Part shown: one piece after another, positions 1 to 64,000 of the stretch
How the letters are laid out: the number at the start of each line of letters is the position of its first letter
Numbering within the stretch: the stretch's first letter is position 1
Source: Amia ocellicauda
Taxonomy: Eukaryota > Chordata > Actinopteri > Amiiformes > Amiidae
DNA: 64,000 nt
NCBI RefSeq assembly: GCF_036373705.1
Contig: NC_089869.1
Span: 4,029,676 to 4,093,675 of the forward strand
Reading direction: 5' to 3'
Program-made: the position numbers and the translations under genes
Notes under the pieces: generated by a model
What the model was told of the DNA's origin: nothing
Database searches by the model: none
What the model saw: the letters and a program-made list of their open reading frames with translations, nothing else

Positions 1-410
1 CAACTAAGCCATGGCGCCAAGGCACAACTCTGTACTACTGTAAAAGCAAATGCTAGACCTCTGTCATTCGGACCCAGGTCTTTCCTAGGATGGATCCATC
101 AAGCCATCCTCCCTTTGATATTTATGTCTGTCTATCACTAACGGTCATTCGTTTACATTCTACGATGCAGAGAAGGCGTGTATGCATCAGAAACTGGCAA
201 ACGTCAGTGGTAACACGCAACGTGGTGGACCCCAGTGCTTTGACCAACTAAGCCATGGCGCCAAGGCGCAACTCTGTACTACTGTAAAAGCAAATGGTGG
301 ACCTCTGTCATTCGGACCCAGGTCTTTCCAAGAATGGATCCATCCAGCCATCCATCATCCCTTTGATTATTTATGTCTGTCTATCACTAACGGTCATTCG
401 TTTACACTAT

Positions 411-659
411 ACGATGCAGAGAAGGCGTGCTTGCAACAGAAACTGGCAAACGTCAGCGGAAACACGCAACATGGTGGACCCCAGTGCTTTGACCAACTAA
501 GCCATGGCGCCAAGACACAACTCTGTACTACTGTAAAAGCATATGGTGGACCTCTGTCTTTCGGACCCAGGTCTTTCCAAGAATGGATCCATCCAGCCAT
601 CCATCCTCCCTTTGATTATTTATGTCTGTCTATCAATAACGGTCATTCGTTTACTCTCT
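411..659 (-). repeat. Representative long (249-bp) monomer
   Basis: Reference copy of the long form, counted from ACGATGCAG to the next ACGATGCAG. It differs from the short form by an extra ATCC step (CCATCCATCCTCCC) and by GATTATTT in place of GATATTT, together 5 bp. Because 249 is a multiple of three, runs of long monomers keep reading frames open; the 244-bp form breaks them. Confidence 0.93.
484..511 (-). pseudogene. tRNA-Thr(AGT) 5' half inside the satellite monomer
   Basis: Read on the minus strand, these 28 nt are identical to the first 28 nt of the consensus tRNA-Thr(AGT) genes in this window: 5' acceptor strand GGCGCCA, D arm, and the first bases of the anticodon stem. The pol III A box TGGCTTAGTTGG is intact. 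The rest of the tRNA is absent; downstream the sequence passes straight into CTGGGGTCCACC. About 190 such halves occur in the window. Whether any is transcribed is unknown. Confidence 0.9.
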
Positions 660-903
660 ACGATGCAGAGAAGGCGTGCTTACAACAGAAACTGGCAAAC
701 TGCAGCGGTAACACGCAACGTAGTGGACCCCAGTGCTTTGACCAACTAAGCCATGGCGCCAAGGCACAACTCTGTTCTACTGTAAAAGCAAATGCTAGAC
801 CTCTGTCATTCGGACCCAGGTCTTTCATAGGATGGATCCTTCAAGCCATCATCCCTTTGATATTTATGTCTGTCTATCAATAACGGTCATTCGTTAACAC
901 TCT

Positions 904-1147
904 ACGATGCAGAGAAGGCGTGCTTGCAACAGAAACAGGCAAACTGCAGCGGTAACGCGCAACGTGGTGGACCCCAGTGCTTTGACCTACTAAGCCATGG
1001 CGCCAAGGCGTAACTCTGTACTACTGTAAAAGCAAATGGTGGACCTCTGTCTTTCGGACCCAGGTCTTTCCAAGAATTGATCCATCCAGCCATCCTCCCT
1101 TTGATATTTATGTCTGTCTATCAATAACGGTCATTCGTTTACACTCT
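904..1147 (-). repeat. Representative short (244-bp) monomer
   Basis: Reference copy of the short form. Reading + strand: ACGATGCAG head, variable CAACAGAAACAGG region, CGCGCAACG segment, minus-strand tRNA-Thr half at 977-1004, TGTAAAAGC (altered relative to the TTTAAA upstream of the intact genes), a CGGACCCAGG element resembling a T arm, GGATCC, and an ATTTATGTCTGTC tail. I count 11 CpG in the unit, so it is not strongly CpG-depleted. Confidence 0.93.
977..1004 (-). pseudogene. tRNA-Thr 5' half, common variant
   Basis: Same 28-nt tRNA-Thr half as in the long monomer, but with CTACTAAGCC instead of CAACTAAGCC on the + strand. This changes one D-loop base while still fitting the A-box consensus (TGGCTTAGTAGG). 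The variant marks a large monomer subfamily across the window. Confidence 0.88.
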
Positions 1148-1736
1148 ACGATGCAGAGAAGGCGTGCTTGCAACAGAAACAGGCAAACTGCAGCGGTATC
1201 GCGCAACGTGGTGGACCCCAGTGCTTTGACCTACTAAGCCATGGCGCCAAGGCGTAACTCTGTACGACTGTAAAAGCAAATGGTGGACCTCTGTCTTTCG
1301 TACCCAGGTCTTTCCAAGAATGGATCCATCCAGCCATCCATCCTCCCTTTGATTATTTATGTCTGTCTATCACTAACGGTCATTCGTATACACTCTACGA
1401 TGCAGAGAAGGGGTGTATGCATCAGAAACTGGCAAACGTCAGTGGTAACACGCAACGTGGTGGACCCCAGTGCTTTGACCAACTAAGCCATGGCGCCAAG
1501 GCGCAACTCTGTACTACTGTAAAAGCAAATGGTGGACCTCTGTCATTCGGACCCAGGTCTTTCCAAGAATGGATCCATCCAGCCATCCATCATCCCTTTG
1601 ATTATTTATGTCTGTCTATCACTAACGGTCATTCGTTTACACTATACGATGCAGAGAAGGCGTGCTTGCAACAGAAACTGGCAAACGTCAGCGGAAACAC
1701 GCAAAATGGTGGACCCCAGTCACAACTGCTGCGCCT

Positions 1737-1810
1737 GTCTCTGTGGCGCAATCGGATAGCGCGTTCGGCTGTTAACCGATAGGTTGGTGGTTCGAGCCCA
1801 CCCAGGGACT
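1737..1810 (+). tRNA. tRNA-Asn(GTT), block B1
   Basis: Full 74-nt cloverleaf with anticodon loop CTGTTAA (GTT), acceptor GTCTCTG/CAGGGAC, A box at 1744-1755 and B box GGTTCGAGCCC at 1789-1799; no encoded CCA. It would carry asparagine to AAC/AAU codons in cytosolic translation. Variants: A43 to T faces T27 at the base of the anticodon stem, and the discriminator is T instead of G, so function may be reduced. It converges on the Thr(CGT) gene 170 bp away. No run of four T follows it for over 400 bp. Confidence 0.9.
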
Positions 1811-1923
1811 TCCGTCTACTTCTTACCTCATTGCTTCCATTCGTGGTGTGATACCTGGACCTCTGCTTTATAATCTCCTGTCCAAGAAACATCGCCTCAT
1901 GCAGTAACAATGGCTACGCTGCC

Positions 1924-1928
1924 AAAAA
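1924..1928 (-). terminator. Pol III T-run terminator of tRNA-Thr(CGT)
   Basis: AAAAA on the + strand is TTTTT in the minus-strand transcript, 52 nt past the Thr(CGT) 3' end. The same T5 lies 53-57 bp left of every Thr(CGT) copy in the window (for example 10,480-10,484). A run of four or more T is the usual pol III stop. Confidence 0.6.
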
Positions 1929-1980
1929 TTTAAACTTGCCCCACAGTCTTGCTGTACATAGCCTCTGCCTCCTTCAGGCC

Positions 1981-2054
1981 AGGCACCGCTGGGATTTGAA
2001 CCCAGGATTTCCTGTTTACGAGACAGGCGCTTTCACCAGCTAAGCCACGGCGCC
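1981..2054 (-). tRNA. tRNA-Thr(CGT), block B1
   Basis: Full 74-nt tRNA: acceptor GGCGCCG/CGGTGCC, anticodon loop CTCGTAA (CGT), T loop TTCAAAT, discriminator T. It reads ACG threonine codons. A box TGGCTTAGCTGG and B box GGTTCAAATCC are intact. This copy equals the window consensus for the gene. Its spacing to the Asn gene (starts 244 bp apart) is the same in all blocks. Confidence 0.95.
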
Positions 2055-2608
2055 AGAGCTTGCTGCACTCACCCTCTCCTAGTTTCATACCAATTGAGTG
2101 GCTGCTACCGTTTACCTACTATATGTTCCACGCATCCATCCAACCAACTATCCACCCACCCATCCATCCATCTATCTATCTATCTATCCTTCTATCTATC
2201 TGTCTGTCTATCTACCTACCTCTCTGTTTTTCTACAGCTAGCACTCACTTGCTTACGCTTGCGGACAAAGCAAGAAGTGTGCGTTCAACAGGATCTGACA
2301 GCGGAAAAAGATTTACAGGAAGATGTAGACAGCACTGACAAGTGCAACAAACATTGGGCGGTGTCCGTCTCTGTGCGGCAATGGCATTTTGGCCATCGGA
2401 CCTAAAGCCAAAGGTGGCCGCGCGAAGCCTACACAGGGAAGTCTTTGTCGTCCTGACCCTATTCTTTAAATACAAGGTTCTGGGAAGATGACTTTCTGCT
2501 TTACTCTCTCAGTGGAAGGGATATATCATTCCGGCCCGTGACGAGAGGCAATCTTGCAAAATCCTGGAAGGGGAGTCCTTAGCATGTACCCTAACATGAA
2601 CAAAGCTG
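2055..2608. repeat. Spacer B1 with compound microsatellite
   Basis: The 554 bp between the two Thr genes hold an ATCC, then ATCT, then GTCT/CTAC compound microsatellite at about 2131-2226. A non-coding stretch follows to the Thr(AGT) 3' flank. Short open frames rich in Ile-Tyr-Leu-Ser are translations of the microsatellite. On the minus strand AAAA at 2558-2561 gives TTTT 48 nt past the Thr(AGT) gene, a minimal pol III stop. This copy has TTTTT on the + strand at 2227-2231. No other gene is visible. Confidence 0.9.
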
Positions 2609-2682
2609 AGGCACCACTGGGATTTGAACCCAGGATCTCCTGTTTACTAGACAGGTGCTTTGACCAACTAAGCCATGGCACC
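2609..2682 (-). tRNA. tRNA-Thr(AGT), block B1
   Basis: Full 74-nt tRNA with anticodon loop CTAGTAA (AGT, read as inosine at position 34 after editing in eukaryotes), T loop TTCAAAT and discriminator T. It decodes ACU/ACC/ACA. A box at 2664-2675 and B box at 2620-2630 are intact. C3 to T leaves a T-G wobble in the acceptor stem. Its first 28 nt are the source of the half-tRNA in every satellite monomer. Confidence 0.94.
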
Positions 2683-5600
2683 AAGGCACAACTCTGTACT
2701 ACTTTAAAAGCAAATGCTGGACCTCTGTCATTCGGACCCAGGTCTTTCCTAGAATGGATCCAGCCAGCCAGCCATCCATCCTCCCTTTGATATTTATGTC
2801 TGTCTATTACTAACGGTCATTCGTTTACACTCTACGATGCAGAAAAAGCGTGCATGCATCAGAAACTGGCAAATGTCAGCGGTAACATGCAACGTGGTGG
2901 ACCCCAGTGCTTTGACCAACTAAGCCATGGCGCCAAGGCGCAACTCTGTACTACTGCAGAAGCAAATGGTGGACCTCTGTCATTCGGACCCAGGTCTTTC
3001 CTAGAATGGATCTATCCAGCAAACCTCCCTTTGATATTTATGTCTGTCTATCACTAACGGTCATTCGGTTACACTCTACGATGCAGAGAAGGCGTGCTTG
3101 CAACAGAAACTGGCAATCTGCAGCGGTAACGCGCAACGTGGTGGACCCCAGTGCTCTGACCTACTAAGCCACGGCGCCAAGGCGTAACTCTGTACTACTG
3201 TAAAAGCAAATGGTGGACCTCTGTCTTTTGGACCTAGGTCTTCCAAGAATGGATCCATCCAGCCATCCTCCCTTTGATATTTATGTCTGTCTATCACTAA
3301 CGGTCATTCGTTTACACTCTACGATGCAGAGAAGGCGTGCTTGCAACAGAAACAGGCAAACTGCAGCGGTAACGCGCAACGTGGTGGACCCCAGTGCTTT
3401 GACCTACTAAGCCATGGCGCCAAGGCGCAACTCTGTACTACTGTAAAAGCAAATGGTGGACCTCTGTCTTTCGTACCCAGGTCTTTCCAAGAATGGATCC
3501 ATCCAGCCATCCATCCTCCCTTTGATTATTTATGTCTGTCTATCACTAACGGTCATTCGTATACACACTACGATGCAGAGAAAGCGCGCATGCATAAGAA
3601 ACTGGCAAACGTCAGCGTTAACGCGCAACGTGGTGGACCCCAGTGCTTTGACCAACTAAGCCATGGTGCCAAGGCTCAACTCTGTACTACTGTAAAAGCA
3701 AACGCTAGACCTCTGTCATTCGGACCCAGGTCTTTCCAAGAATGGATCCATCCAGCCATCCTCCCTTTGATATTTATGTCTGTCTATCACTAATGGTCAT
3801 TCGTTTACACTCTACGATGCAGAGAAGGCGTGCTTGCAACAGAAACAGGCAAACTGCAGCGGTAACGCGCAACGTGGTGGACCCCAGTGCTTTGACCAAC
3901 TAAGCCATGGTGCCAAGGCGCAACTCTGAACTACTGTAAAAGCAAATGGTGGAACTCTGTCATTCGGACCCAGGTCTTTCCAAGAATGGATCCATCCAGC
4001 CATCTTCCCTTTGATATTTATGTCTGTCTATCAATAACGGTCATTCGTTTACACTCTACGATGCAGAGAAGGCGTGCTTGCAACAGAAACAGGCAAACTG
4101 CAGCGGTAACGCGCAACGTGGTGGACCCCAGTGCTTTGACCAACTAAGCCATGGTGCCAAGGCGCAACTCTGTACTACTGTAAAAGCAAATTGTGGAACT
4201 CTGTCATTCGGACCCAGGTCTTTCCAAGAATGGATCCATCCAGCCATCCTCCCTTTGATATTTATTTCTGTCTATCAATAACGGTCATTCGTTTACACTC
4301 TACGATGCAGAGAAGGCGTGCTTGCAACAGAAACAGGCAAACTGCAGCGGTAACGCGCAACGTGGTGGACCCCAGTGCTTTGACCAACTAAGCCATGGTG
4401 CCAAGGCGCAACTCTGTACTACTGTAAAAGCAAATGCTAGACCTCTGTCATTCGGACCCAGGTCTTTCCTAGGATGGATCCATCATGCCATCCTCGCTTT
4501 GATATTTATGTCTGTCTATCACTAACGGTCATTCGTTTACACTCTACGATGCAGAGAAGGCGTGCTTGCAACAGAAACAGGCAAACTGCAGCGGTAACGC
4601 GCAACGTGGTGGGCCCCAGTGCATTGACCTACTAAGCCATGGCGCCAAGGCACAACTCTGTACTACTGCAGAAGCAAATGGTGGACCTCTGTCATTCGGA
4701 CCCAGGTATTTCCAAGAATGGATCCATCCAGCCATCCATCCTCCCTTTGATTATTTATGTCTGTCTATCACTAACTGTCATTCGTATACACTCTACGATG
4801 CAGAGAAAGCGTGCTTGCAATAGAAACTGGCAAACTGCAGCGGTAACACGCAATGTAGTGGACCCCAGTGCTTTGACCAACTAAGCCATGGCGCCAAGGC
4901 ACAACTCTGTACTACTGTAAAAGCAAATGCTAGACCTCTGTCATTCGGACCCAGGTCTTTCCTAGGATGGATCCATCAAGCTATCCTCCCTTTGATATTT
5001 ATGTCTGTCTATCACTAACGGTCATTCGTTTACACTCTACGATGCAGAGAAGGCGTGTATCAATCAGAAACTGGCAAACGTCAGTGGTAACACGCAACGT
5101 AGTGGACCCCAGTGCTTTGACCTACTAAGCCATGGCGCCAAGGCACAACTCTGTACTACTTTAAAAGCAAATGCTGGACCTCTGTCATTCGGACCCAGGT
5201 CTTTCCTAGAATGGATCCATCCAGGCAGCCATCCATCATCCCTTTGATTATTTATGTCTGTCTATTACTAACGGTCATTCGTTTACACTCTACGATGCAG
5301 AGAAAGCGTGCATGCATCAGAAACTGGCAAACGTCAGCGGTAACACGCAACGTGGTGGACCCCAGTGCTTTGAGCAACTAAGCCATGGCGCCAAGGCGCA
5401 ACTCTGTACTACTGCAGAAGCAAATGGTGGACCTCTGTCATTCGGACCCAGGTCTTTCCTAGAATGGATCCATCCAGCAAACCTCCCTTTGATATTTATG
5501 TCTGTCTATCACTAACGGTCATTCGGTTACACTCTACGATGCAGAGAAGGCGTGCTTGCAACAGAAACTGGCAATCTGCAGCGGTAACGCGCAACGTGGT

Positions 5601-8600
5601 GGACCCCAGTGCTTTGACCTACTAAGCCATGGCGCCAAGGCGTAACTCTGTACAACTGTAAAAGCAAATGGTGGACCTCTGTCTTTCGGACCCAGGTCTT
5701 TCCAAGAATGGATCCATCCAGCCATCCTCCCTTTGATATTTATGTCTGTCTATCAATAACGGTCATTCGTTTATACTCTACGATGCAGAGAAGGCGTGCT
5801 TGCAACAGAAACTGGCAAACTGCAGCGGTAACGCGCAACGTGGTGGACCCAAGTGCTTTGACCTACTAAGCCATGGCGCCAAGGCACAACTCTGTACTAC
5901 TGCAGAAGCAAATGGTGGACCTCTGTCATTCGGACCCAGGTATTTCCAAGAATGGATCCATCCAGCCATCCATCCTCCCTTTAATTATTTATGTCTGTCT
6001 ATGACTAACGGTCATTCGCATACACTCTACGATGCAGAGAAAGCGTGCTGGCAATAGAAACTGGCAAACGTCAGCGGTAACACGCAACGTGGTGGACCCC
6101 AGTGCTTTGACCAACTAAGCCATGGCGCCAAGGCGCAACTCTGTACTACTGCAGAAGCAAATGGTGGACCTCTGTCAATCGGACCCAGGTCTTTCCTAGA
6201 ATGGATCCATCCAGCCATCCTCCCTTTGATATTTATGTCTGTCTATCAATAACGGTCATTCGTTTACACTCTACGATGCAGAGAAGGCGTGCTTGCAACA
6301 GAAACAGGCAAACTGCAGCAGTAACGCGCAACGTGGTGGACCCCAGTGCTTTGACCAACTAAGCCATGGTGCCAAGGCGCAACTCTGAACTACTGTAAAA
6401 GCAAATGGTGGAACTCTGTCATTCGGACCCAGGTCTTTCCAAGAATGGATTCATCCAGCCATCCTCCCTTTGATATTTATGTCTGTCTATCAATAACGGT
6501 CATTCGTTTACTCTCTACGATGCAGAGAAGGCGTGCTTACAACAGAAACTGGCAAACTGCAGCGGTAACACGCAATGTAGTGGACCCCAGTGCTTTGACC
6601 AACTAAGCCATGGCGCCAAGGCACAACTCTGTTCTACTGTAAAAGCAAATGCTAGACCTCTGTCATTCGGACCCAGGTCTTTCATAGGATGGATCCATCA
6701 AGCCATCATCCCTTTGATATTTATGTCTGTCTATCAATAACGGTCATTCGTTAACACTCTACGATGCAGAGAAGGCGTGCTTGCAACAGAAACAGGCAAA
6801 CTGCAGCGGTAACGCGCAACGTGGTGGACCCCAGTGCTTTGACCTACTAAGCCATGGCGCCAAGGCGTAACTCTGTACTACTGTAAAAGCAAATGGTGGA
6901 CCTCTGTCTTTCGGACCCAGGTCTTGCCAAGAATTGATCCATCCAGCCATCCTCCCTTTGATATTTATGTCTGTCTATCAATAACGGTCATTCGTTTACA
7001 CTCTACGATGCAGAGAAGGCGTGCTTGCAACAGAAACAGGCAAACTGCAGCGGTATCGCGCAACGTGGTGGACCCCAGTGCTTTGACCTACTAAGCCATG
7101 GCGCCAAGGCGTAACTCTGTACTACTGTAAAAGCAAATGGTGGACCTCTGTCTTTCGGACCAAGGTCTTTCCAAGAATGGATCCATCCAGCCATCCTCCC
7201 TTTGATATTTATGTCTGTCTATCAATAACGGTCATTCGTTTACTCTCTACGATGCAGAGAAGGCGTGCTTACAACAGAAACTGGCAAACTGCAGCGGTAA
7301 CACGCAATGTAGTGGACCCCAGTGCTTTGACCAACTAAGCCATGGCGCCAAGGCACAACTCTGTTCTACTGTAAAAGCAAATGCTAGACCTCTGTCATTC
7401 GGACCCAGGTCTTTCATAGGATGGATCCATCAAGCCATCATCCCTTTGATATTTATGTCTGTCTATCAATAACGGTCATTCGTTAACACTCTACTATGCA
7501 GAGAAGGCGTGCTTGCAACAGAAACAGGCAAACTGCAGCGGTAACGCGCAACGTGGTGGACCCCAGTGCTTTGACCTACTAAGCCATGGCGCCAAGGCGT
7601 AACTCTGTACTACTGTAAAAGCAAATGGTGGACCTCTGTCTTTCGGACCCAGGTCTTTCCAAGAATTGATCCATCCAGCCATCCTCCCTTTGATATTTAT
7701 GTCTGTCTATCAATAACGGTCATTCGTTTACACTCTACGATGCAGAGAAGGCGTGCTTGCAACAGAAACAGGCAAACTGCAGCGGTATCGCGCAACGTGG
7801 TGGACCCCAGTGCTTTGACCTACTAAGCCATGGCGCCAAGGCGTAACTCTGTACTACTGTAAAAGCAAATGGTGGACCTCTGTCTTTCGGACCCAGGTCT
7901 TTCCAAGAATGGATCCATCCAGCCATCCATCCTCCCTTTGATTATTTATGTCTGTCTATCAATAACGGTCATTCGTTTACACTCTACGATGCAGAGAAGG
8001 CGTGCTTGCAACAGAAACAGGCAAACTGCAGCGGTATCGCGCAACGTGGTGGACCCCAGTGCTTTGACCTACTAAGCCATGGCGCCAAGGCGTAACTCTG
8101 TACTACTGTAAAAGCAAATGGTGGACCTCTGTCTTTCGGACCCAGGTCTTTCCAAGAATGGATCCATCCAGCCATCCATCCTCCCTTTGATTATTTATGT
8201 CTGTCTATCACTAACGGTCATTCTTATACACTCTACGATGCAGAGAAAGCGTGCATGCATAAGAAACAGGCAAACTGCAGCGGTAACGCGCAACGTGGTG
8301 GACCCCAGTGCTTTGACCAACTAAGCCATGGTGCCAAGGCGCAACTCTGAACTACTGTAAAAGCAAATGGTGGAACTCTGTCATTCGGACCCAGTTCTTT
8401 CATTGGATGGATCCATCAAGCCATCATCCCTTTGATATTTATGTCTGTCTATCAATAACGGTCATTCGTTAACACTCTACGATGCAGAGAAGGCGTGCTT
8501 GCAACAGAAACAGGCAAACTGCAGCGGTAACACGCAACGTAGTGGACCCCAGTGCTTTGACCAACTAAGCCATGGCGCCAAGGCACAACTCTGTTCTACT

Positions 8601-10292
8601 GTAAAAGCAAATGCTAGACCTCTGTCATTCGGACCCAGGTCTTTCATTGGATGGATCCATCAAGCCATCATCCCTTTGATATTTATGTCTGTCTATCAAT
8701 AACGGTCATTCGTTAACACTCTACGATGCAGAGAAGGCGTGCTTGCAACAGAAACAGGCAAACTGCAGCGGTAACGCGCAACGTGGTGGACCCCAGTGCT
8801 TTGACCTACTAAGCCATGGCGCCAAGGCGTAACTCTGTACTACTGAAAAAGCAAATGGTGGACCTCTGTCTTTCGGACCCAGGTCTTTCCAAGAATTGAT
8901 CCATCCAGCCATCCTCCCTTTGATATTTATGTCTGTCTATCAATAACGGTCATTCGTTTACACTCTACGATGCAGAGAAGGCGTTCTTGCAACAGAAACA
9001 GGCAAACTGCAGCGGTATCGCGCAACGTGGTGGACCCCAGTGCTTCGACCTACTAAGCCATGGCGCCAAGGCGTTACTCTGTACTACTGTAAAAGCAAAT
9101 GGTGGACCTCTGTCTTTCGGACCCAGGTCTTTCCAAGAATGGATCCATCCAGCCATCCATCCTCCCTTTGATTATTTATGTCTGTCTATCACTAACGGTC
9201 ATTCTTATACACTCTACGATGCAGAGAAGGCGTGCTTGCAACAGAAACAGGCAAACTGCAGCGGTAACGCGCAACGTGGTGGACCCCAGTGCTTTGACCT
9301 ACTAAGCCATGGCGCCAAGGCGTAACTCTGTACTACTGTAAAAGCAAATGGTGGACCTCTGTCTTTCGGACCCAGGTCTTTCCAAGAATTGATCCATCCA
9401 GCCATCCTCCCTTTGATATTTATGTCTGTCTATCAATAACGGTCATTCGTTTACACTCTACGATGCAGAGAAGGCGTTCTTGCAACAGAAACAGGCAAAC
9501 TGCAGCGGTATCGCGCAACGTGGTGGACCCCAGTGCTTCGACCTACTAAGCCATGGCGCCAAGGCGTTACTCTGTACTACTGTAAAAGCAAATGGTGGAC
9601 CTCTGTCTTTCGGACCCAGGTCTTTCCAAGAATGGATCCATCCAGCCATCCATCCTCCCTTTGATTATTTATGTCTGTCTATCACTAACGGTCATTCTTA
9701 TACACTCTACGATGCAGAGAAAGCGTGCTTGCAACAGAAACAGGCAAACTGCAGCGGTAACGCGCAACGTGGTGGACCCCAGTGCTTTGACAAACTAAGC
9801 CATGGCGCCAAGGCGCAACTCTGTACTACTGTAAAAGCAAATGGTGGACCTCTGTCATTCGGACCCAGGTCTTTCCTAGGATGGATCCATCAAGCCATCC
9901 TCCCTTTGATATTTATGTCTGTCTATCACTAACGGTCATTCGTTTACACTCTACGATGCAGAGAAGGCGTGTATGCATCAGAAAGTGGCAAACGTCAGTG
10001 GTAACACGCAACGTGGTGGACCCCAGTGCTTTGACCAACTAAGCCATGGCACCAAGGCGCAACTCTGTACTACTGTAAAAGCAAATGGTGGACCTCTGTC
10101 ATTCGGACCCAGGTCTTTCCAAGAATGGATCCATCCAGCCATCCATCATCCCTTTGATTATTTATGTCTGTCTATCACTAACGGTCATTCGTTTACACTA
10201 TACGATGCAGAGAAGGCGTGCTTGCAACAGAAACTGGCAAACGTCAGCGGAAACACGCAACATGGTGGACCCCAGTCACAACTGCTGCGCCT
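2683..10292. repeat. Satellite array A2, about 31 monomers
   Basis: Longest array in the window. It mixes 244- and 249-bp units. A rare monomer at about 3168-3178 carries CCACGGCGCC, the Thr(CGT)-type base at tRNA position 7. A monomer near 5100-5170 keeps the gene-type flank TTTAAAAGC. The run at 6.5-9.7 kb repeats 2-3-unit blocks with CATAGGATGG and TATCGCGCAACG variants. The array recurs from 26,897 to 33,764 minus three monomers. Confidence 0.95.
2703..2708 (-). promoter_or_regulatory. TATA-like TTTAAA upstream of tRNA-Thr(AGT)
   Basis: TTTAAA lies 21-26 bp upstream of the tRNA 5' end, where a TATA-like element can help place TFIIIB. The same position carries TTTAAA in 12 of the 16 full Thr(AGT) copies, TTGAAA in B10 and B13, and TGTAAA in B15 and B17. 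Most satellite monomers have TGTAAA here. The role is inferred from position only. Confidence 0.45.
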
Positions 10293-10312
10293 GTCTCTGT
10301 GGCGCAATCGGA

Positions 10313-10359
<47 letters not shown>

Positions 10360-10366
10360 AGGGACG
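10293..10366 (+). tRNA. tRNA-Asn(GTT), block B2
   Basis: Full length with intact stems. The only change from consensus is G57 to A in the T loop (TTCAAGC), which is tolerated in many tRNAs and keeps a B box of GGTTCAAGCCC. Confidence 0.95.
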
Positions 10367-10536
10367 TCCGTCTATTTCTTACCTCATTGCTTCCATTCGT
10401 GGTGTGAGACCTGGACCTCTGCTTTATAATCTCCTGTCCAAGAAACATGGCCTCATGCAGTAACAATGGCTACGCTGCCAAAAACTTAAACTTGCCCCAC
10501 AGTCTTGCTGTACATAGCCTCTGCCTCCTTCAGGCC

Positions 10537-10610
10537 AGGCACCGCTGGGATTTGAACCCAGGATTTCCTGTTTACGAGACAGGCGCTTTCACCAGCTAAG
10601 CCACGGCGCC
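10537..10610 (-). tRNA. tRNA-Thr(CGT), block B2
   Basis: Identical to the consensus Thr(CGT) gene of B1, with T5 terminator at 10,480-10,484. Confidence 0.95.
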
Positions 10611-11164
10611 AGAGCTTGCTGCACCCACCCTTTCCTAGTTTCATACCAATTCAGTGGCTGCTACCGTTTACCTACTATATGTTCCACGCATCCATCCAAC
10701 CAACTATCAACCCACCCATCCATCCATCTATCTATCTATCTATCCTTCTATCTATCTGTCTGTCTATCTACCTACCTCTCTGTCTTTCTACAGCTAGCAC
10801 TCACTTGCTTACGCTTGCGGACAAAGCAAGAAGTGTGCGTTCAACAGGATCTGACAGCGGAAAAAGATTTGCAGGAAGATGTAGACAGCACTGACAAGTG
10901 CAACAAACATTGGGCGGTGTCCGTCTCTGTGCGGCAATGGCATTTTCGCCATCGGACCTAAAGCCAAAGGTGGCCGCGCGAAGCCTACACAGGGAAGTCT
11001 TTGTCGTCCTGACCCTATTCTTTAAATACAGGGTTCTGGGAAGATGACTTTCTGCTTTACTCTCTCAGTGGAAGGGATATATCATTCCGGCCCGTGACGA
11101 GAGGCAATCTTGCAAAATCCTGGAAGGGGAGTCCTTAGCATGTACCCTAACATGAACAAAGCTG
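10611..11164. repeat. Spacer B2 with compound microsatellite
   Basis: 554 bp. It differs from B1 in a few bases: TATCAACCC within the microsatellite, CATTTTCGCC in place of CATTTTGGCC, and TTTGCAGG in place of TTTACAGG. These variants mark a subfamily shared with B3, B4, B8, B9, B11 and B12. Confidence 0.88.
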
Positions 11165-11238
11165 AGGCACCACTGGGATTTGAACCCAGGATCTCCTGTT
11201 TACTAGACAGGTGCTTTGACCAACTAAGCCATGGCGCC
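11165..11238 (-). tRNA. tRNA-Thr(AGT), block B2
   Basis: Consensus Thr(AGT) sequence with a fully paired acceptor stem apart from the usual G4-T69 wobble. TTTAAA lies at 11,259-11,264 upstream. Confidence 0.95.
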
Positions 11239-11974
11239 AAGGCACATGTCTGTACTACTTTAAAAACAAATGCTGGACCTCTGTCATTCGGACCCAGGTC
11301 TTTCCTAGAATGGATCCATCCAGCCAGCCATCCATCATCCCTTTGATTATTTATGTCTGTCTATTACTAACGGTCATTCGTTTACACTCTACGATGCAGA
11401 GAAAGCGTGCATGCATCAGAAACAGGCAAACGTCAGCGGTAACACGCAACGTGGTGGACCCCAGTGCTTTGAGCAACTAAGCCATGGCGCCAAGGCGCAA
11501 CTCTGTACTACTGCAGAAGCAAATGGTGGACCTCTGTCATTCGGACCCAGGTCTTTCCTAGAATGGATCCATCTAGCAAACCTCCCTTTGATATTTATGT
11601 CTGTCTATCACTAACGGTCATTCGGTTACACTCTACGATGCAGAGAAGGCGTGCTTGCAACAGAAACTGGCAATCTGCAGCGGTAACGCGCAACGTGGTG
11701 GACCCCAGTGCTTTGACCTACTAAGCCATGGCGCCAAGGCGTAACTCTGTTCAACTGTAAAAGCAAATGGTGGACCTCTGTCTTTCGGACCCAGGTCTTT
11801 CCAAGAATGGATCCATCCAGCCATCCATCATCCCTTTGATTATTTATGTCTGTCTATCACTAACGGTCATTCGTTTACACTATACGATGCAGAGAAGGCG
11901 TGCTTGCAACAGAAACTGGCAAACGTCAGCGGAAACACGCAACATGGTGGACCCCAGTCACAACTGCTGCGCCT
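11239..11974. repeat. Satellite array A3, 3 monomers
   Basis: 736 bp. With the tRNA block it forms the 1,682-bp higher-order repeat seen again in B8-B9, B10-B11, B11-B12, B13-B14 and B16-B17. Confidence 0.94.
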
Positions 11975-12846: not shown

Positions 12847-12920
12847 AGGCACCACTGGGATTTGAACCCAGGATCTCCTGTTTACTAGACAGGTGCTTTG
12901 ACCAACTAAGCCATGGCGCC
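12847..12920 (-). tRNA. tRNA-Thr(AGT), block B3
   Basis: Consensus sequence, with upstream TTTAAA present. Confidence 0.95.
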
Positions 12921-52000: not shown

Positions 52001-52391
52001 ATCCTCCCTTTGATATTTATGTCTGTCTATCACTAACGGTCATTCGTTTACACTCTACGATGCAGAGAAGGCGTGTGTGCATCAGAAACTGGCAAACGTC
52101 AGTGGTAACACGCAACGTGGTGGACCCCAGTGCTTTGACCAACTAATTCATGGTGCCAAGGCGCAACTCTGTACTACTGTAAAAGCAAATGCTAGACCTC
52201 TGTCATTCGGACCCAGGTCTTTCCTAGGATGGATCCATCAAGCCATCCTCCCTTTGATATTTATGTCTGTCTATCAATAACGGTCATTCGTTTACACTCT
52301 ACGATGCAGAGAAGGCGTGTATGCATCAGAAACTGGCAAACGTCAGCGGAAACACGCAACATGGTGGACCCCAGTCACAACTGCTGCGCCT
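46019..52391. repeat. Satellite array A15, about 26 monomers
   Basis: Mixed monomer subfamilies, including CTTAGCCATGGAGCC and TGTATCAATCAG types. A unit near 49,180 has CAACGTTGGTGG (one extra base), which shifts frame relative to its neighbours. A unit near 52,145 has CTAATTCATGG, disrupting the A box of its tRNA half. Confidence 0.94.
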
Positions 52392-53263: not shown

Positions 53264-53337
53264 AGGCACCACTGGGATTTGAACCCAGGATCTCCTGTTT
53301 ACTAGACAGGTGCTTTGACCAACTAAGCCATGGTGCC
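53264..53337 (-). tRNA. tRNA-Thr(AGT), block B15
   Basis: Full length; G4 to A pairs with T69. The 5' flank is monomer-type (TGTAAA, AATGCTAGACC), so the gene has recombined with a monomer at its shared 5' half. Confidence 0.93.
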
Positions 53338-53833
53338 AAGGCACAACTCTGTACTACTGTAAAAGCAAATGCTAGACCTCTGTCATTTGGACCCAGGTCT
53401 TTCATAGGATGGATCCATCAAGCCATCCTCCCTAAGATATTTATATCTGTCTATCAATAATTGTCATTCGTTTACACTCTACGATGCAGAGAAGGCGTGC
53501 TTGCAACAGAAACAGGCAACCTGCAGCGGTAACGCGCAACGTGGTGGACCCCAGTGCTTTGACCAACTAAGCCATGGCGCCAAGGCACAACTCTGTACTA
53601 CTGTAAAAGCAAATGCTGGACCTCTGTCATTCGGACCCAGGTCTTTCCAAGAATGGATCCATCCAGCCATCCTCCCTTTGATATTTATGTCTGTCTATCA
53701 ATAACGGTCATTCGTTTACACTCTACGATGCAGAGAAAGCGTGCATGCATAAGAAACAGGCAAACTGCAGCGGTAACGCGCAACGTGGTGGACCCCAGTG
53801 CTTTGACCTACTAAGCCATGGCGTAAAGGCGTA
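53338..53833. repeat. Satellite array A16, 2 monomers
   Basis: Ends in a tRNA-Thr half (GCCATGGCGTAAAGG) fused straight into the D loop of a tRNA-Asn. CCCTAAGATATTTATATC replaces the usual tail in the first unit. Confidence 0.92.
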
Positions 53834-54692: not shown

Positions 54693-54766
54693 AGGCACCA
54701 CTGGGATTTGAACCCAGGATCTGCTGTTTACTAGACAGGTGCTTTGACCAACTAAGCCATGGCGCC
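54693..54766 (-). tRNA. tRNA-Thr(AGT), block B16
   Basis: Full length; G43 to C mismatches C27 at the base of the anticodon stem. Upstream TTTAAA present. Confidence 0.88.
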
Positions 54767-55515
54767 AAGGCACAACTCTGTACTACTTTAAAAACAAATG
54801 CTGGACCTCTGTCATTCGGACCCAGGTCTTTCCTAGAATGGATCCATCCAGCCAGCAATCCATCCTCCCTTTGATTATTTATGTCTGTCTATTACTAACG
54901 GTCATTCGTTTACACTCTACGATGCAGAGAAAGCGTGCATGCATCAGAAACAGGAAAACTGAAGCGGTAACGCGCAACGTGGTGGACCCCAGTGCTTTGA
55001 CCTACTAAGCCATGGCGCCAAGGCGTAACTCTGTACTACTGTAAAAGCAAATGGTGGACCTCTGTCATTCGGACCCAGGTCTTTCCAAGAATGGATACAT
55101 CCAGCCATCCTCCCTTTGATATTTATGTCTGTCTATCAATAACGGTCATTCGTTTACACTCTACGATGCAGAGAAAGCGTGCATGCATCAGAAACTGGCA
55201 AACGTCAGCCGTAACACGCAACGTGGTGGACCCCAGTGCTTTGACCAACTAAGCCATGGCGCCAAGGCACAACTCTGTACTACTGTAAAAGCAAATGCTG
55301 GACCTCTGTCATTCGGACCCAGGTCTTTCCAAGAATGGATCCATCCAGCCATCCTCCCTTTGATATTTATGTCTGTCTATCAATAACGGTCATTCGTTTA
55401 CACTCTACGATGCAGAGAAAGCGTGCATGCATAAGAAACAGGCAAACTGCAGCGGTAACGCGCAACGTGGTGGACCCCAGTGCTTTGACCTACTAAGCCA
55501 TGGCGTAAAGGCGTA
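54767..55515. repeat. Satellite array A17, 3 monomers
   Basis: Includes a unit with CAGGAAAACTGAAGCGG in place of CAGGCAAACTGCAGCGG, which breaks the PstI-like CTGCAG shared by most units. Ends with the same Thr-half/Asn fusion as A16, 1,682 bp on. Confidence 0.92.
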
Positions 55516-56374: not shown

Positions 56375-56448
56375 AGGCACCACTGGGATTTGAACCCAGG
56401 ATCTCCTGTTTACTAGACAGGTGCTTTGACCAACTAAGCCATGGCGCC
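56375..56448 (-). tRNA. tRNA-Thr(AGT), block B17
   Basis: Consensus tRNA, but the 5' flank is monomer-type (GGCGTAACTC, TGTAAA). Confidence 0.94.
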
Positions 56449-59400
56449 AAGGCGTAACTCTGTACTACTGTAAAAGCAAATGGTGGACCTCTGTCATTCG
56501 GACCCAGGTCTTTCCAAGAATGGATCCATCCAGCCATCCTCCCTTTGATATTTATGTCTGTCTATCAATAACGGTCATTCGTTTATACTCTACGATGCAG
56601 AGAAGGCGTGCTTGCAACAGAAACAGGAAAACTGAAGCGGTAACGCGCAACGTGGTGGACCCCAGTGCTTTGACCTACTAAGCCATGGCGCCAAGGCGTA
56701 ACTCTGTACTACTGTAAAAGCAAATGGTGGACCTCTGACATTCGGACCCAGGTATTTCCAAGAATGGATCCATCCAGCCATCCTCCCTTTGATATTTATG
56801 TCTGTCTATCAATAACGGTCATTCGTTTACACTCTACGATGCAGAGAAAGCGTGCATGCATCAGAAACTGGCAAACGTCAGCCATAACACGCAACGTGGT
56901 GGACCCCAGTGCTTTGACCAACTAAGCCATGGCGCCAAGGCACAACTCTGTACTACTGTGAAAGCAAATGCTAGACCTCTGTCATTCGGACCTAGGTCTT
57001 TCATAGGATGGATCCATCCAGCCATCCTCCCTTTGATATTTATGTCTGTCTATCACTAACGGTCATTCGTTTACACTCTACGATGCAGAGAAGGCGTGTA
57101 TGCATCAGAAACTGGCAATCTGCAGCGTTAACGCGCAACGTTGTGGACCCCAGTGCTTTGACCAACTAAGCCATGGTGCCAAGACGCAACTCTGTACTAC
57201 TGTAAAAGCAAATGCTAGACCTCTGTCATTCGGACCCAGGTCTTTCATAGGATGGATCCATCAAGCCATCCTCCCTTTGATATTCATGTCTGTCTATCAA
57301 TAACGGTCATTCGTTTACACTCTACGATGCAGAGAAGGCGTGCTTGCAACAGAAACAGGCAAACTGCAGCGGTATCGCGCAACGTGGTGGACCCCAGTGC
57401 TTTGACCTACTAAGCCATGGCGCCAAGGCGTAACTCTGTACTACTGTAAAAGCAAATGGTGGACCTCTGTCTTTCGGACCCACGTCTTTCCAAGAATGGA
57501 TCCATCCAGCCATCCATCCTCCCTTTGATTATTTATGTCTGTCTATCACTAACGGTCATTCGTATACACTCTACGATGCAGAGAAAGCGTGCATGCATAA
57601 GAAACAGGCAAACTGCAGCGGTAACGCGCAACCTGGTGGACCCCAGTGCTTTGACCAACTAAGCCATGGCGCCAAGGCGCAACTCTGTACTACAGTAAAA
57701 GCAAATGGTGGACCTCTGTCATTCGGACCCAGGTCTTTCCAAGAATGGATCCATCCAGCCATCCTCCAATTGATTATTATGTCTGTATATCAATAACGGT
57801 CATTCGTTTACACTCTACGATGCAGAGAAGGCGTGCTTGCAACAGAAACAGGCAAATTGCAGCGGTAACACACAACGTAGTGGACCCCAGTGCTTTGACC
57901 AACTTAGCCATGGAGCCAAGGCACAACTCTGTACTACTGTAAAAGCAAATGCTAGACCTCTGTCATTCGAACCCAGGTCTTTCCTAGGATGGTTCCATCA
58001 AGCCATCCTACCTTTGATATTTATGTCTGTCTATCAATAACGGTCATTCGTCTACACTCTACGATGCAGAGAAGGCGTGTATGCATCAGAAACTGGCAAA
58101 CGTCAGCCGTAACACGCAACGTGGTGGACCCCAGTGCTTTGACCAACTAAGCCATGGCGCCAAGGCACAACTCTATACTACTGTGAAAGCAAATGCTAGA
58201 CCTCTGTCATTCGAACCCAGGTCTTTCCTAGGATGGTTCCATCAAGCCATCCTCCCTTTGATATTTATGTCTGTCTATCAATAACGGTCATTCGTTTACA
58301 CTCTACGATGCAGAGAAGGCGTGCTTGCAACAGAAACAGGCAAACTGCAGCGGTAACGCGCAACGTGGTGGACCCCAGTGCTCTGACCTACTAAGCCATG
58401 GTGCCAAGGCGTAACTCTGTACTGCTGTAAAAGCAAATGGTGGACCTCTGTCTTTCGGACCCTGGTCTTTCCAAGAATGGATCCATCCAGCCATCCTCCC
58501 TTTGATATTTATGTCTGTCTATCAATAATTGTAATTCGTTTACACTCTACGATGCAGAGAAGGCGTGCTTGCAACAGAAACAGGCAAACTGCAGCGGTAA
58601 CGCGCAACGTGGTGGACCCCAGTGCTTTGAACTACTAAGCCATGGCGCCAAGGCGTAACTCTGTACTACTGTAAAAGCAAATGGTGGACCTCTGTCTTTC
58701 GGACCCAGGTCTTTCCAAGAATGGATCCATCCAGCCATCCATCCTCTCTTTGATTATTTATGTCTGTCTATCACTAACGGTCATTCGTATACACTCTACG
58801 ATGCAGAGCAGGCGTGCATGCATAAGAAACAGGCAAACTGCAGCGGTTAAGCGCAACGTGGTGGACCCCAGTGCTTTGACCTACTAAGCCATGGCGCCAA
58901 GGCGCAACTCTGTACTACTGTAAAAGCAAATGGTGGACCTCTGTCATTCGGACCCAGGTCTTTCCAAGAATGGATCCATCCAGCCATCCTCCCATTGATT
59001 ATTATGTCTGTATATCAATAACGGTCATTCGTTTACACTCTACGATGCAGAGAAGGCGTGCTTGCAACAGAAACAGGCAAATTGCAGCGGTAACACACAA
59101 CGTAGTGGACCCCAGTGCTTTGACCAACTTAGCCATGGAGCCAAGGCACAACTCTTTACTACTGTAAAAGCAAATGCTATACCTCTGTCATTCGAACCCA
59201 GGTCTTTCCTAGGATGGTTCCATCAAGCCATCCTCCCTTTGATATTTATGTCTGTCTATCAATAACGGTCATTCGTTTACACTCTACGATGCAGAGAAGG
59301 CGTGCTTGCAACAGAAACAGGCAAACTGCAGCGGTAACGCGCAACGTGGTGGACCCCAGTGCTTTGACCTACTAAGCCATGGCGCCAAGGCGTAACTCTG

Positions 59401-62013
59401 TACTAATGTAAAAGCAAATGGTGGACCTCTGTCATTCGGACCCAGGTCTTTCCTAGAATGGATCCATCCAGCCATCCATCCTCCCTTTGATTATTTATGT
59501 CTGTCTATCACTAACGGCCATTCATTTACACTATACGATGCAGAGAAGGCGTGCTTGCAAGAGAAACTGGCAAACGACAAATGCTGGACCTCTGTCATTC
59601 GGACCCAGGTCTTTCCAAGAATGGATCCATCCAGCCAGCCATCCATCATCCCTTTGATTATTTATGTCTGTCTATTACTAACGGTCATTCGTTTACACTC
59701 TACGATGCAGAGAAAGCGTGCATGCATCAGAAACTGGCAAACGTCAGCGGTAACACGCAACGTGGTGGACCCCAGTGCTTTGAGCAACTAAGCCATGGCG
59801 CCAAGGCGCAACTCTGTACTACTGCAGAAGCAAATGGTGGACCTCTGTCTTTCGGACCCAGGTCTTTCCAAGAATGGATCCATCCAGCCATCCTCCCTTT
59901 GATATTTATGTCTGTCTATCAATAACGGTCATTCGATTACACTCTACGATGCAGAGAAGGCGTGCTTGCAACAGAAACAGGCAAACTGCAGCGGTAACGC
60001 GCAACGTGGTGGACCCCAGTGCTTCGACCTACTAAGCCATGGCGCCAAGGCGTTACTCTGTACTACTGTAAAAGCAAATGGTGGACCTCTGTCTTTCGGA
60101 CCCAGGTCTTTCCAAGAATGGATCCATCCAGCCATCCATCCTCCCTTTGATTATTTATGTCTGTCTATCACTAACGGTCATTCTTATACACTCTACGATG
60201 CAGAGAAAGCGTGCATGCATTAGAAACAGGCAAACTGCAGCGGTAACGCGCAACGTGGTGGACCCCAGTGCTTTGACAAACTAAGCCATGGCGCCAAGGC
60301 GCAACTCTGTACTACTGTAAAAGCAAATGGTGGACCTCTGTCATTCGGACCCAGGTCTTTCCTAGGATGGATCCATCAAGCCATCCTCCCTTTGATATTT
60401 ATGTCTGTCTATCACTAACGGTCATTCGTTTACACTCTACGATGCAGAGAAGGCGTGTATGCATCAGAAACTGGCAAACGTCAGCGGTAACACGCAACGT
60501 GGTGGACCCCAGTGCTTTGAGCAACTAAGCCATGGCGCCAAGGCGCAACTCTGTACTACTGCAGAAGCAAATGGTGGACCTCTGTCATTCGGACCCAGGT
60601 CTTTCCTAGAATGGATCCATCCAGCAAACCTCCCTTTGATATTTATGTCTGTCTATCACTAACGGTCATTCGGTTACACTCTACGATGCAGAGAAGGCGT
60701 GCTTGCAACAGAAACTGGCAATCTGCAGCGGTAACGCGCAACGTGGTGGACCCCAGTGCTTTGACCAACTAAGCCATGGCGCCAAGGCGTAACTCTGTTC
60801 AACTGTAAAAGCAAATGGTGGACCTCTGTCTTTCGGACCCAGGTCTTTCCAAGAATGGATCCATCCAGCCATCCTCCCTTTGATATTTATGTCTGTCTAT
60901 CAATAACGGTCATTCGTTTACACTCTACGATGCAGAGAAGGCGTGCTTGCAACAGAAACAGGCAACCTGCAGCGGTAACGCGCAACGTGGTGGACCCCAG
61001 TGCTTTGACCTACTAAGCCATGGCGCCAAGGCGTAACTCTGTACTACTGTAAAAGCAAATGGTGGACCTCTGTCTTTCGGACCCAGGTCTTTCCAAGAAT
61101 GGATCCATCCAGCCATCCATCCTCCCTTTGATTATTTATGTCTGTCTATCACTAACGGTCATTCGTATACACTCTACGATGCAGAGAAAGCGTGCATGCA
61201 TAAGAAACTGGCAAACGTCAGCGGTAACACGCAACGTGGTGGACCCCAGTGCTTTGACCAACTAAGCCATGGCGCCAAGGCGCAACTCTGTACTACTGCA
61301 GAAGCAAATGGTGGACCTCTTTCAATCGGACCCAGGTCTTTCCTAGAATGGATCCATCCAGCCATCCTCCCTTTGATATTTATGTCTGTCTATCAATAAC
61401 GGTCATTCGTTTACACTCTACGATGCAGAGAAGGCGTGCTTGCAACAGAAACAGGCAAACGTCAGCGGTAACGCGCAACGTGGTGGACCCCAGTGCTTTG
61501 ACCAACTAAGCCATGGTGCCAAGGCGCAACTCTGTACTACTGTAAAAGCAAATGCTAGACCTCTGTCATTCGGACCCAGGTCTTTCCTAGGATGGATCCA
61601 TCAAGCCATCCTCCCTTTGATATTTATGTCTGTCTATCAATAACGGTCATTCGTTTACACTCTACGATGCAGAGAAGGCGTGTATGCATCAGAAACTGGC
61701 AAACGTCAGTGGTAACACGCAACGTGGTGGACCCCAGTGCTTTGACCAACTAAGCCATGGCGCCAAGGCGCAACTCTGTACTACTGTAAAAGCAAATGGT
61801 GGACCTCTGTCATTCGGACCCAGGTCTTTCCAAGAATGGATCCATCCAGCCATCCATCATCCCATTGATTATTTATGTCTGTCTATCACTAACGGTCATT
61901 CGTTTACACTATACGATGCAGAGAAGGCGTGCTTGCAACAGAAACTGGCAAACGTCAGCGGAAACACGCAACATGGTGGACCCCAGTCACAACTGCTGCG
62001 CCTGTCTCTGTGG
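56449..62013. repeat. Satellite array A18, about 22-23 monomers
   Basis: Mixed subfamilies. Near 59,570 one monomer is internally deleted: CTGGCAAACGAC joins directly to AAATGCTGGACC, removing its tRNA half. 58,796-59,472 copies 17,281-17,957. Confidence 0.93.
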
Positions 62014-62023
62014 CGCAATCGGA

Positions 62024-62060
<37 letters not shown>

Positions 62061-62087
62061 GAGCCCACCCAGGGACGTCCGTCTACT
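62014..62087 (+). tRNA. tRNA-Asn(GTT), block B18, consensus copy
   Basis: Identical to B5 and to the window consensus; all stems paired and discriminator G. Confidence 0.96.
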
Positions 62088-62247
62088 TCTTACCTCATTG
62101 CTTCCATTCGTGGTGTGAGACCTGGACCTCTGCTTTATAATCTCCTGTCCAAGAAACATGGCCTCATGCAGTAACAATGGCTACGCTGCCAAAAACTTAA
62201 ACTTGCTCCACAGTCTTGCTGTACATAGCCTCTGCCTCCTTCAGGCC

Positions 62248-62321
62248 AGGCACCGCTGGGATTTGAACCCAGGATTTCCTGTTTACAAGACAGGCGCTTT
62301 CACCAGCTAAGCCACAGCGCC
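62248..62321 (-). tRNA. tRNA-Thr with anticodon TGT, block B18
   Basis: Thr(CGT) body with C34 to T: loop CTTGTAA, anticodon TGT at 62,285-62,287, which reads ACA (and ACG by wobble), still threonine. C6 to T gives a T-G wobble with G67. It is the only TGT isoacceptor in the window. Confidence 0.9.
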
Positions 62322-62587
62322 AGAGCTTGCTGCACCCACCCTTTCCTAGTTTCATACCAATTCAGTGGCTGCTACCGTTTACCTATTATATGTTCCACGC
62401 ATCCATCCAACCAACTATCATCCCACCCATCCATCCATCTATCTATCTATCCTTCTATCTATCTGTCTGTCTATCTACCTACCTCTCTGTCTTTCTACAG
62501 CTAGCACTCACTTGCTTACGCTTGCGGACAAAGCAAGAAGTGTGCGTTCAACAGGATCTGACAGCGGAAAAAGATTTACAGGAAGAT
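62322..62587. repeat. Truncated spacer B18
   Basis: Only the first 266 bp of the spacer remain, with a microsatellite one ATCT step shorter. At about 62,587 it joins a monomer at CAGGTCATTCC, deleting the rest of the spacer and the entire Thr(AGT) gene. Confidence 0.9.
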
Positions 62588-63769
62588 TCAGGTCATTCCT
62601 AGAATGGATCCATCCAGCCAGCAATCCATCCTCCCTTTGATTATTTATGTCTGTCTATTACTAACGGTCTTTCGTTTACACTCTACGATGCAGAGAAAGC
62701 GTGCATGCATCAGAAACTGGCAATCGTCAGCGGTAACACGCAACGTGGTGGACCCCAGTGCTTTGACCAACTAAGCCATGGCGCCAAGGCGCAACTCTGT
62801 ACTACTGCAGAAGCAAATGTTGGACCTCTGTCAATCGGACCCAGGTCTTTCCTAGAATGGATCCATCCAGCCATCCTCCCTTTGATATTTATGTCTGTCT
62901 ATCAATAACGGTCATTCGTTTACACTCTACGATGCAGAGAAGGCGTGCTTGCAACAGAAACAGGCAAACTGCAGCGGTAACGCGCAACGTGGTGGACCCC
63001 AGTGCTTTGACCGACTAAGCCATGGCGCCAAGGCGTAACTCTGTACTACTGTAAAAGCAAATGGTGGACCTCTGTCTTTCGGACCCAGGTCTTTCCTAGA
63101 ATGGATCCATCCAGCAAACCTCCCTTTGATATTTATGTCTGTCTATCACTAACGGTCATTCGGTTACACTCTACGATGCAGAGAAGGCGTGCTTGCAACA
63201 GAAACTGGCAATCTGCAGCGGTAACGCGCAACGTGGTGGACCCCAGTGCTTTGACCTACTAAGCCATGGCGCCAAGGCGTAACTCTGTACTACTGTAAAA
63301 GCAAATGGTGGACCTCTGTCTTTCGGACCCAGGTCTTTCCAAGAATGGATCCATCCAGCAAACCTCCCTTTGATATTTATGTCTGTCTATCAATAACGGT
63401 CATTCGTTTACACTCTACGATGCAGAGAAGGCGTGCTTGCAACAGAAACAGGAAAACTGCAGCGGTAACGCGCAACGTGGTGGACCCCAGTGCTTTGACC
63501 TACTAAGCCATGGCGCCAAGGCGTAACTCTGTACTACTGTAAAAGCAAATGGTGGACCTCTGTCTTTCGGACCCAGGTCTTTCCAAGAATGGATCCATCC
63601 AGCCATCCTCCCTTTAATATTTATGTCTGTCTATCAATAACGGTCATTCGTTTACACTCTACGATGCAGAGAAAGCGTGCATGCATAAGAAACAGGCAAA
63701 CTGCAGCGGTAACGCGCAACGTGGTGGACCCCAGTGCTTTGACCTACTAAGCCATGGCGAAAAGGCGTA
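62588..63769. repeat. Satellite array A19, about 5 monomers
   Basis: Begins at the B18 deletion junction in the middle of a monomer and ends at the Asn fusion of B19 (GCCATGGCGAAAAGG). Confidence 0.92.
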
Positions 63770-63830
63770 AATCGGATAGCGCGTACGGCTGTTAACCGAA
63801 AGGTTGGTGGTTCGAGCCCACCCAGGGACG
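63770..63830 (+). pseudogene. 5'-truncated tRNA-Asn, block B19
   Basis: Third copy of the 61-nt remnant with T28 to A, but with the consensus TTCGAGC T loop. The window ends 170 bp later, before the Thr(CGT) gene of this block. Confidence 0.92.
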
Positions 63831-64000
63831 TCCGTCTACTTCTTACCTCATTGCTTCCATTCGTGGTGTGAGACCTGGACCTCTGCTTTCTAATCTCCTG
63901 TCCAAGAAACATCGCCTCATGCAGTAACAATGGCTACGCTGCCAAAAACTTAAACTTGCCCCACAGTCTTGCTGTACATAGCCTCTGACTCCTTCAGGCC

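Follow-up and report, generated by a model that had tools for sequence, protein, structure and literature searches.

How does a transfer RNA (tRNA) gene cluster come to be filled with tandem repeats that carry a fragment of one of its own genes? The question is raised by a 64,000-base stretch of the genome of Amia ocellicauda (the window; C26:4029676-4093675 of the 988-Mb assembly), in which repeat units holding the 5' part of a tRNA-Thr(AGT) gene alternate with groups of tRNA genes. The organization described below makes it very probable that this repeat is the amplified intergenic spacer of a tandem tRNA array, generated by one tandem duplication and subsequent unequal exchange, in which the tRNA piece travels as a passenger and provides the register.

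On the plus strand, the regular block consists of tRNA-Asn (+), tRNA-Thr(CGT) (-), a degenerate tRNA-Asn pseudogene (+) and tRNA-Thr(AGT) (-), followed by a run of repeats that extends to the next Asn gene. In a representative block, these components are located at 1737-1810 (tRNA-Asn(GTT)), 1981-2054, 2367-2441 and 2608-2682, respectively, the last being the parent gene of the repeat. ARAGORN recognizes 50 tRNA genes in the window, comprising 16 Asn, 18 at the Thr(CGT) position (anticodon CGT in 15, CTT in two and TGT in one) and 16 Thr(AGT). The 16 complete Thr(AGT) genes are accompanied by one truncated copy (14288-14341), and the pseudogene between both Thr genes is present in 17 copies. 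Most tRNA copies score well in Rfam, with 51 matches of 31.6-73.4 bits in the window. The pseudogene has no Rfam match, even at a permissive E-value; its alignment to Asn reaches a score of 25, against a mean of -4.8 (standard deviation 3.4, maximum 7.5) in 2000 shuffles. The whole array is composed of 37 Thr-Thr blocks, 30 of which have an Asn gene with an intact 5' end, and as a repeated unit of several tRNA genes it represents a tandem tRNA array.

The regular repeat unit comprises the Thr(AGT)-Asn spacer, except for its 16-18 bp beside Asn, and nucleotides 1-28 of tRNA-Thr, i.e. the 5' strand of the acceptor, the D arm and two further nucleotides. In the gene-borne first unit of the representative block, the 28-nt piece (including the D arm with the A box) is located at 2655-2682 (-) and the remainder, the 5' flank of Thr(AGT), at 2683-2906 (no strand assigned). 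The Asn-proximal 16-bp spacer end at 1721-1736 (+), the presumed other end of the founding duplication, is not part of the repeat. The retained piece had been described in the initial annotation as a 5' half with its A box; the acceptor 5' strand and the D arm are indeed retained, although the piece (called the half below for brevity) amounts to about one third of the gene.

A search with the 28-nt minus-strand 5' end of tRNA-Thr, allowing up to 8 mismatches in 28 positions, gave 210 matches in the window. Judged by the letters in front of them, 176 of these belong to satellite units, 18 to Thr(CGT) positions and 16 to Thr(AGT) genes. The 11-mers that precede the halves represent either the repeat junction (GGTGGACCCCA and close variants) or the tRNA anticodon loop, and no other kind of junction was found among the 210 halves in the window. 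All 176 satellite halves have the same junction point, 160 being identical over 14 bases and 16 having point differences. Within a run, the Thr half comes immediately after GGACCCCA, and the final unit of a run usually continues as GGACCCCAGT-CACAACTGCTGCGCCT-Asn. At the junction, the two parent sequences have only GT in common. Conversely, 193 copies of the flank core are present in the window, with the half at the correct distance in 189. The four copies without it are at 155, in the unit cut by the left edge of the window, and at 14364, 59695 and 62678, which represent deletions (14364 in the block at 13.4-14.4 kb, 59695 in a 416-bp unit). The presence of the half in monomers is therefore general as originally noticed, with three deleted units instead of the single one reported. 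Distances between halves are most often 244 (115 cases), 249 (36) and 253 bp (16), other values being rarer. Repeats cover 47,570 of 64,000 bases (74.3%), in agreement with the initial estimate of about 74%.

Similarity between the repeat and the flank of its parent gene was assessed in an alignment of 185 units (six units of irregular structure and the incomplete final one were left out; identities exclude gaps). Gene-borne flanks and internal units have a mean identity of 90.6% (2704 pairs, range 84.7-99.5%) that extends along the whole unit, while internal units share 92.1% among themselves (14,196 pairs). This similarity is far above chance, whereas the initial annotation had set similarity no better than chance as the outcome that should overturn it, and it confirms that the half is joined to the gene's own 5' flank. 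Together with the composition of the unit and its one junction, it also makes a satellite born from the tRNA cluster and still interleaved with it, as first suggested, the most likely interpretation.

The array spans ~ 174 kb on one contig, from C26:3975562 to 4149196 as delimited by matches to positions 1-1000 of the window. A genome search with a 1-kb repeat segment gave 144 matches (32 of 38 candidates scored), and a search with the flank only, devoid of tRNA letters, gave 481 (40 of 43 candidates scored; E-values 2.7e-111 to 2.2e-79 among the matches listed); in both, all matches among those listed are in the array. Satellite halves at the common junction number 453 in the array, in addition to two flanked by a deletion of one base, and Asn genes comprise 34 with an intact start and five with truncated starts. 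Runs are built of 2-31 subrepeats, with a median of 9 (39 runs in the whole array). A search with the 3' part of Thr(AGT), in which 40 of 332 candidates were scored, gave 39 matches in the array and one on contig C20, and additional Thr(AGT) genes may exist in the genome. The C20 gene is the sole tRNA in the 1.2 kb around it and resembles the window solely within the tRNA gene, which indicates that the flank belongs to the array locus. A 24-base pattern had no matches in viral contigs.

These features also specify what the repeat should be called. Similar non-coding units follow one another head to tail, as in a satellite, and the monomer is composed of a gene part and its flank, as in a gene-derived satellite; its abundance is that of one ~ 174-kb locus in a 988-Mb assembly. 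At the same time, it is derived from the spacer or promoter of its own gene unit, it is confined to the spacer of tandem genes among the matches listed, and its number varies between gene units. Existence apart from the parent gene cluster was not found, all matches listed being within the tRNA array. The satellite label given initially is thus appropriate for a tandem, gene-derived repeat, but intergenic-spacer subrepeat is a better term than free satellite.

Because all satellite halves share one junction point, a single founding tandem duplication is the simplest explanation. We infer that it would have joined nucleotide 28 of tRNA-Thr to a point 16-18 bp before Asn. After this event, the tRNA piece with its flank would have existed in at least two copies, permitting unequal crossing-over or conversion among gene-borne and internal units. 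Such exchange would alter the number of units, with the other 46 nt of the gene remaining joined to a correct 5' end, and larger unequal exchanges would multiply or delete whole blocks. Blocks made up of Asn, Thr(CGT), pseudo-Asn and Thr(AGT), each with a spacer of 2 to 31 units, would be the outcome. Retention of the tRNA piece would follow from its position within the segment that was duplicated, where it serves as a register of exchange, and not from transcription driven by the A box.

Traces of exchange can be recognized in the flanks. Types were distinguished in 15 alignment columns, which represent six single-base changes, two 4-bp insertions and one 1-bp insertion. Gene-borne first units mostly form a distinct subtype; in the window, one cluster unites 14 of the 16 with six internal units. 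The gene type is defined by the 252-253-bp class, to which 28 of the 37 gene-borne units of the array belong; of the others, eight are 244 bp long and internal-type in at least 12 columns, and one is a mosaic. Two of the eight are internal-type in all 15 columns, one in 14 (with one other letter), four in 13, and one in the first 12 only. Reciprocally, of 411 internal units, 13 are gene-type in every one of the 15 columns and another eight in all columns beginning with the fourth. Two-way exchange, within or beside the tRNA piece, would explain these mixed flank types. It would also account for the raised variation in the first 60 bp of the gene's 5' flank, where variation outside CpG sites is 0.047, about three times the 0.013-0.019 of most of the block (30 of 37 blocks).

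On a larger scale, two adjacent duplicates of ~ 24 kb were observed. In each, 84 of 87 pieces are matched, 65 of the 84 being identical, and the copies differ by three subrepeats at two places. They diverge at the far end, where the last two matched pieces are 5-6% different and three more pieces exist in one copy only; this is taken as the end of the duplication. Positions 1-13412 of the window represent the right part of one duplicate, directly adjoined by the next copy from 13413 to about 36400.

A retrovirus-like long terminal repeat (LTR) element, with an open reading frame for an aspartyl protease (Pfam), is present at C26:4009600-4018000 and 4138860-4146200. In both interruptions it occupies an identical position within the repeat unit, and its right end lies at the equivalent position at the left array edge, near 3975540. 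The element was probably copied through exchange of array segments, and its placement is as expected from large unequal exchanges.

Several observations weigh against this history. The founding event itself is unobserved, and the unamplified spacer was not found in this genome. An overlap of 2 bp, as present at the junction, does not suffice to prove a mechanism. Among the eight gene-borne units of 244 bp, four are still gene-type at two of the three leading diagnostic sites, and because these two letters are also present in 28-29% of internal units, the point of exchange is not exactly placeable in the 28-nt piece. Finally, simple unequal-exchange models predict greater divergence of units at array ends, whereas such units are not more diverged here (0.036 and 0.043, from 14 and 2 end units, compared with 0.043-0.045 for internal units).

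Other explanations have to be considered for the same data. One is that the retained A box drives transcription by RNA polymerase III (Pol III), and that RNAs starting with the 5' part of tRNA-Thr, regulatory or similar to tRNA fragments, are under selection. The D arm holds the A box and is complete in nearly every unit, and a T-arm-like stretch is present in the flank on the same strand, the Thr minus strand (local score 13, compared with a mean of 8.8 in shuffles, 2.4% of which score as high), although this is one of four uncorrected tests. The best B-box match in the flank, 8/11, is reached by 56% of 500 shuffles. The half does not stand out in conservation across 169 internal units (rank 36 among 217 windows for the mean), and a functional A box was rejected on the absence of any conservation excess over the rest of these units. 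A second tRNA remnant in the flank was likewise rejected, matches to Asn (either strand) and to plus-strand Thr being no better than chance. In 30 gene copies, the half has a variation outside CpG of 0.0026 (1 of 26 sites variable), which could be interpreted as constraint; however, the value is 0.0193 with CpG sites included, and the pseudo-Asn is as uniform (0.0041, 2 of 62 sites). Since few sites are involved and a pseudogene behaves equally, we give little weight to this low variation and consider selected RNAs most unlikely. The proposal that the tRNA 5' part acts as an exchange register through which gene flanks are drawn from several hundred satellite variants, a reservoir akin to pseudogenes, in its strongest form with recruitment of Pol III factors by hundreds of A boxes, is quite unlikely; if the strongest form were true, these boxes would modify how the cluster is expressed or give rise to tRNA-half RNAs. 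The least credible alternative is a tandem array of short interspersed elements (SINEs) or retroposed tRNA pseudogenes. It agrees with the many copies of tRNA-derived sequence, but its probability is negligible: the copies are arranged head to tail at a single locus among the matches listed, with the gene's own flank attached. The hallmarks of tRNA-derived SINEs, an A box together with a B box and dispersed retroposed copies, are lacking, as there is an A-box region with no B box above chance and all matches listed are in one array.

An older satellite, captured or invaded by tRNA genes and then equalized with the 5' end of the gene by gene conversion, would be consistent with the interleaving of satellite and gene blocks and with flank exchange in both directions. 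Such an origin is nevertheless very unlikely, given that the two ends of the unit are both gene borders of the cluster (tRNA sequence, and spacer beside Asn) and that the flank is absent outside the array among the matches listed. Selection for tRNA dosage deserves somewhat more attention, although we regard it as rather improbable. It would maintain block number and genes, with subrepeats either tolerated as passengers or aiding transcription as spacers, in accordance with the good Rfam scores and the little-varied Thr(AGT) half outside CpG. Non-CpG variation, calculated over 30 of 37 blocks after dropping seven that lack an intact Asn start, is 0.0186 in Asn, 0.0153 in Thr(CGT) and 0.0180 in the 3' part of Thr(AGT), compared to 0.0128-0.0157 in spacers; with all 37 blocks, the value for Asn is 0.053. 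Most gene parts therefore vary like spacers, and purifying selection on the bulk of array tRNA genes was not seen. Several copies are truncated or have a changed anticodon. Moreover, array genes have no near T-run terminator. The nearest downstream run of four T residues (T4) is at 48 nt in all 37 Thr(AGT) genes and, at the Thr(CGT) position, at 53 nt in 36 of 37 and at 47 nt in the other one, and 33 of 34 Asn genes have no T4 run within 250 nt, unlike the solitary C20 Thr(AGT), the only control gene, with five T residues at the gene end. Non-canonical Pol III terminators are known, and with this single control the distant or missing T-runs make expression less likely.

To return to the amplified spacer, the repeat is most likely without a function of its own. 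It would be a passenger, and the tRNA array itself may be largely dispensable. None of the tests points to importance of the A box.

Arrays of ribosomal RNA genes are known to contain subrepeats in the intergenic spacer, including duplicated spacer promoters. The Amia repeat resembles them in its location within the spacer of a tandem unit, in variable number and in inclusion of a piece of the promoter region; it differs in being associated with Pol III tRNA genes and in that the duplicated piece is half of an internal promoter, without evidence of activity. According to the available text of the reports on PcP190 (PMC11675491, PMC12191414), this satellite is derived from 5S ribosomal DNA (rDNA), has a unit of about 190 bp, including a 120-bp region that resembles what is transcribed in 5S, and occurs in seven families of frogs. 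Derivation from a Pol III gene and unit size are similar, whereas in the Amia repeat, which was found at one locus, 28 of the 74 nt of a tRNA gene are retained. Tandem units of several tRNA genes with spacer repeats of variable number are likewise present in Entamoeba (PMC2652664), where repeats are mostly 7-12 bp long and microsatellite-like, and no tRNA pieces are described in them in the portion of the paper available. In Harttia catfish, satellites with tRNA-gene-derived parts are reported and satellite DNAs derived from tRNAs are mentioned (PMC11955569); these fish satellites are described as complex mosaics with SINE and long interspersed element (LINE) parts, and the accessible sections describe neither a parent cluster in situ nor a single junction. 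Zebrafish and stickleback have many clustered tRNA genes and pseudogenes (PMC2888827), a likeness to the Amia cluster, with no spacer-derived satellite described in the accessible text, and the part of PMC6309819 that could be consulted contains nothing on tRNA-derived repeats.

Within the open PubMed Central literature, searched with limited wording, no satellite made from a tRNA spacer and the 5' part of its gene is named. By analogy, the repeat would be of a kind already known, that of gene-derived satellites, with rDNA spacer subrepeats and 5S-derived satellites as its nearest relatives. The initial remark that it is unusual consequently stands only in part, as 5S satellites and fish tRNA-related satellites have already been published. 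What appears to be new, within the literature covered, is a tRNA spacer amplified in place together with the 5' part of its own gene, with products of exchange still readable. Satellite origins are often guessed from faded similarity; here the parent gene, spacer, junction and repeat adjoin. The array thus offers a clean model for conversion of a spacer into a satellite without destruction of the gene, and a site for measuring subrepeat turnover and for asking about consequences of partial Pol III promoters in repeats.

Subrepeat runs in the window are very unequal in length. After a run at 1-1720, the representative block begins a run of 31 units, including the gene-borne one, at 2655-10276; a recent duplicate of it, with three units fewer, is the 28-unit run at 26869-33748. 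Other long runs comprise 26 units (45991-52375), 19 (21243-25934), 15 (16610-20308) and eight (41402-43374). Three units were found at 11211-11958 (in a 1682-bp block), 34683-35430, 36365-37103 (with a mosaic first unit), 38038-38785, 39720-40467 and 44309-45056, and only two at 12893-13396. The truncated Thr(AGT) gene at 14288-14341 is fused by deletion into the run at 14288-15679. The gene carries an internal-type flank in the run at 56421-61987, which includes the 416-bp deleted unit at 59359, and a mainly internal-type one in the run at 53310-53830.

The latter run, as well as those at 54739-55512 and 62588-63766, ends in a Thr half fused to a 5'-truncated Asn. The fusions are located at 53798-53830, 55480-55512 and 63734-63766, lack the first ~ 13 nt of Asn, and have short shared letters (GGCGYAA) close to the join. 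A different half/Asn fusion is present close to the right edge of the array (L027, about 2805-2820). The edge itself is an abrupt end inside a tRNA half at C26:4149196 (L027, about 4196), and a piece of the Thr-Thr spacer is found to the left of the array, at 3966699-3967087.

The Thr-Thr spacer of every block contains a CATC/ATCT tract (2111-2240 and equivalents), and a short related tract exists in the repeat unit. Comparison of the 5' spacer of Thr(CGT) with the repeated spacer, both of which hold tracts of this type, gives a local score of 21, with a maximum of 18 in 300 shuffles. The tracts are possibly a sign of common descent of the two spacers.

Changes of anticodon were observed in several genes. 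CTT, read as Lys, is carried by a Thr-bodied gene of identical sequence in two blocks (37364-37437 and 43635-43708), and CGA, read as Ser, was found at L011:7053-7126. The Thr gene at the CGT position at 62248-62321 has the anticodon TGT; its block lost Thr(AGT) by deletion, and the run at 62588-63766 adjoins it through a deletion.

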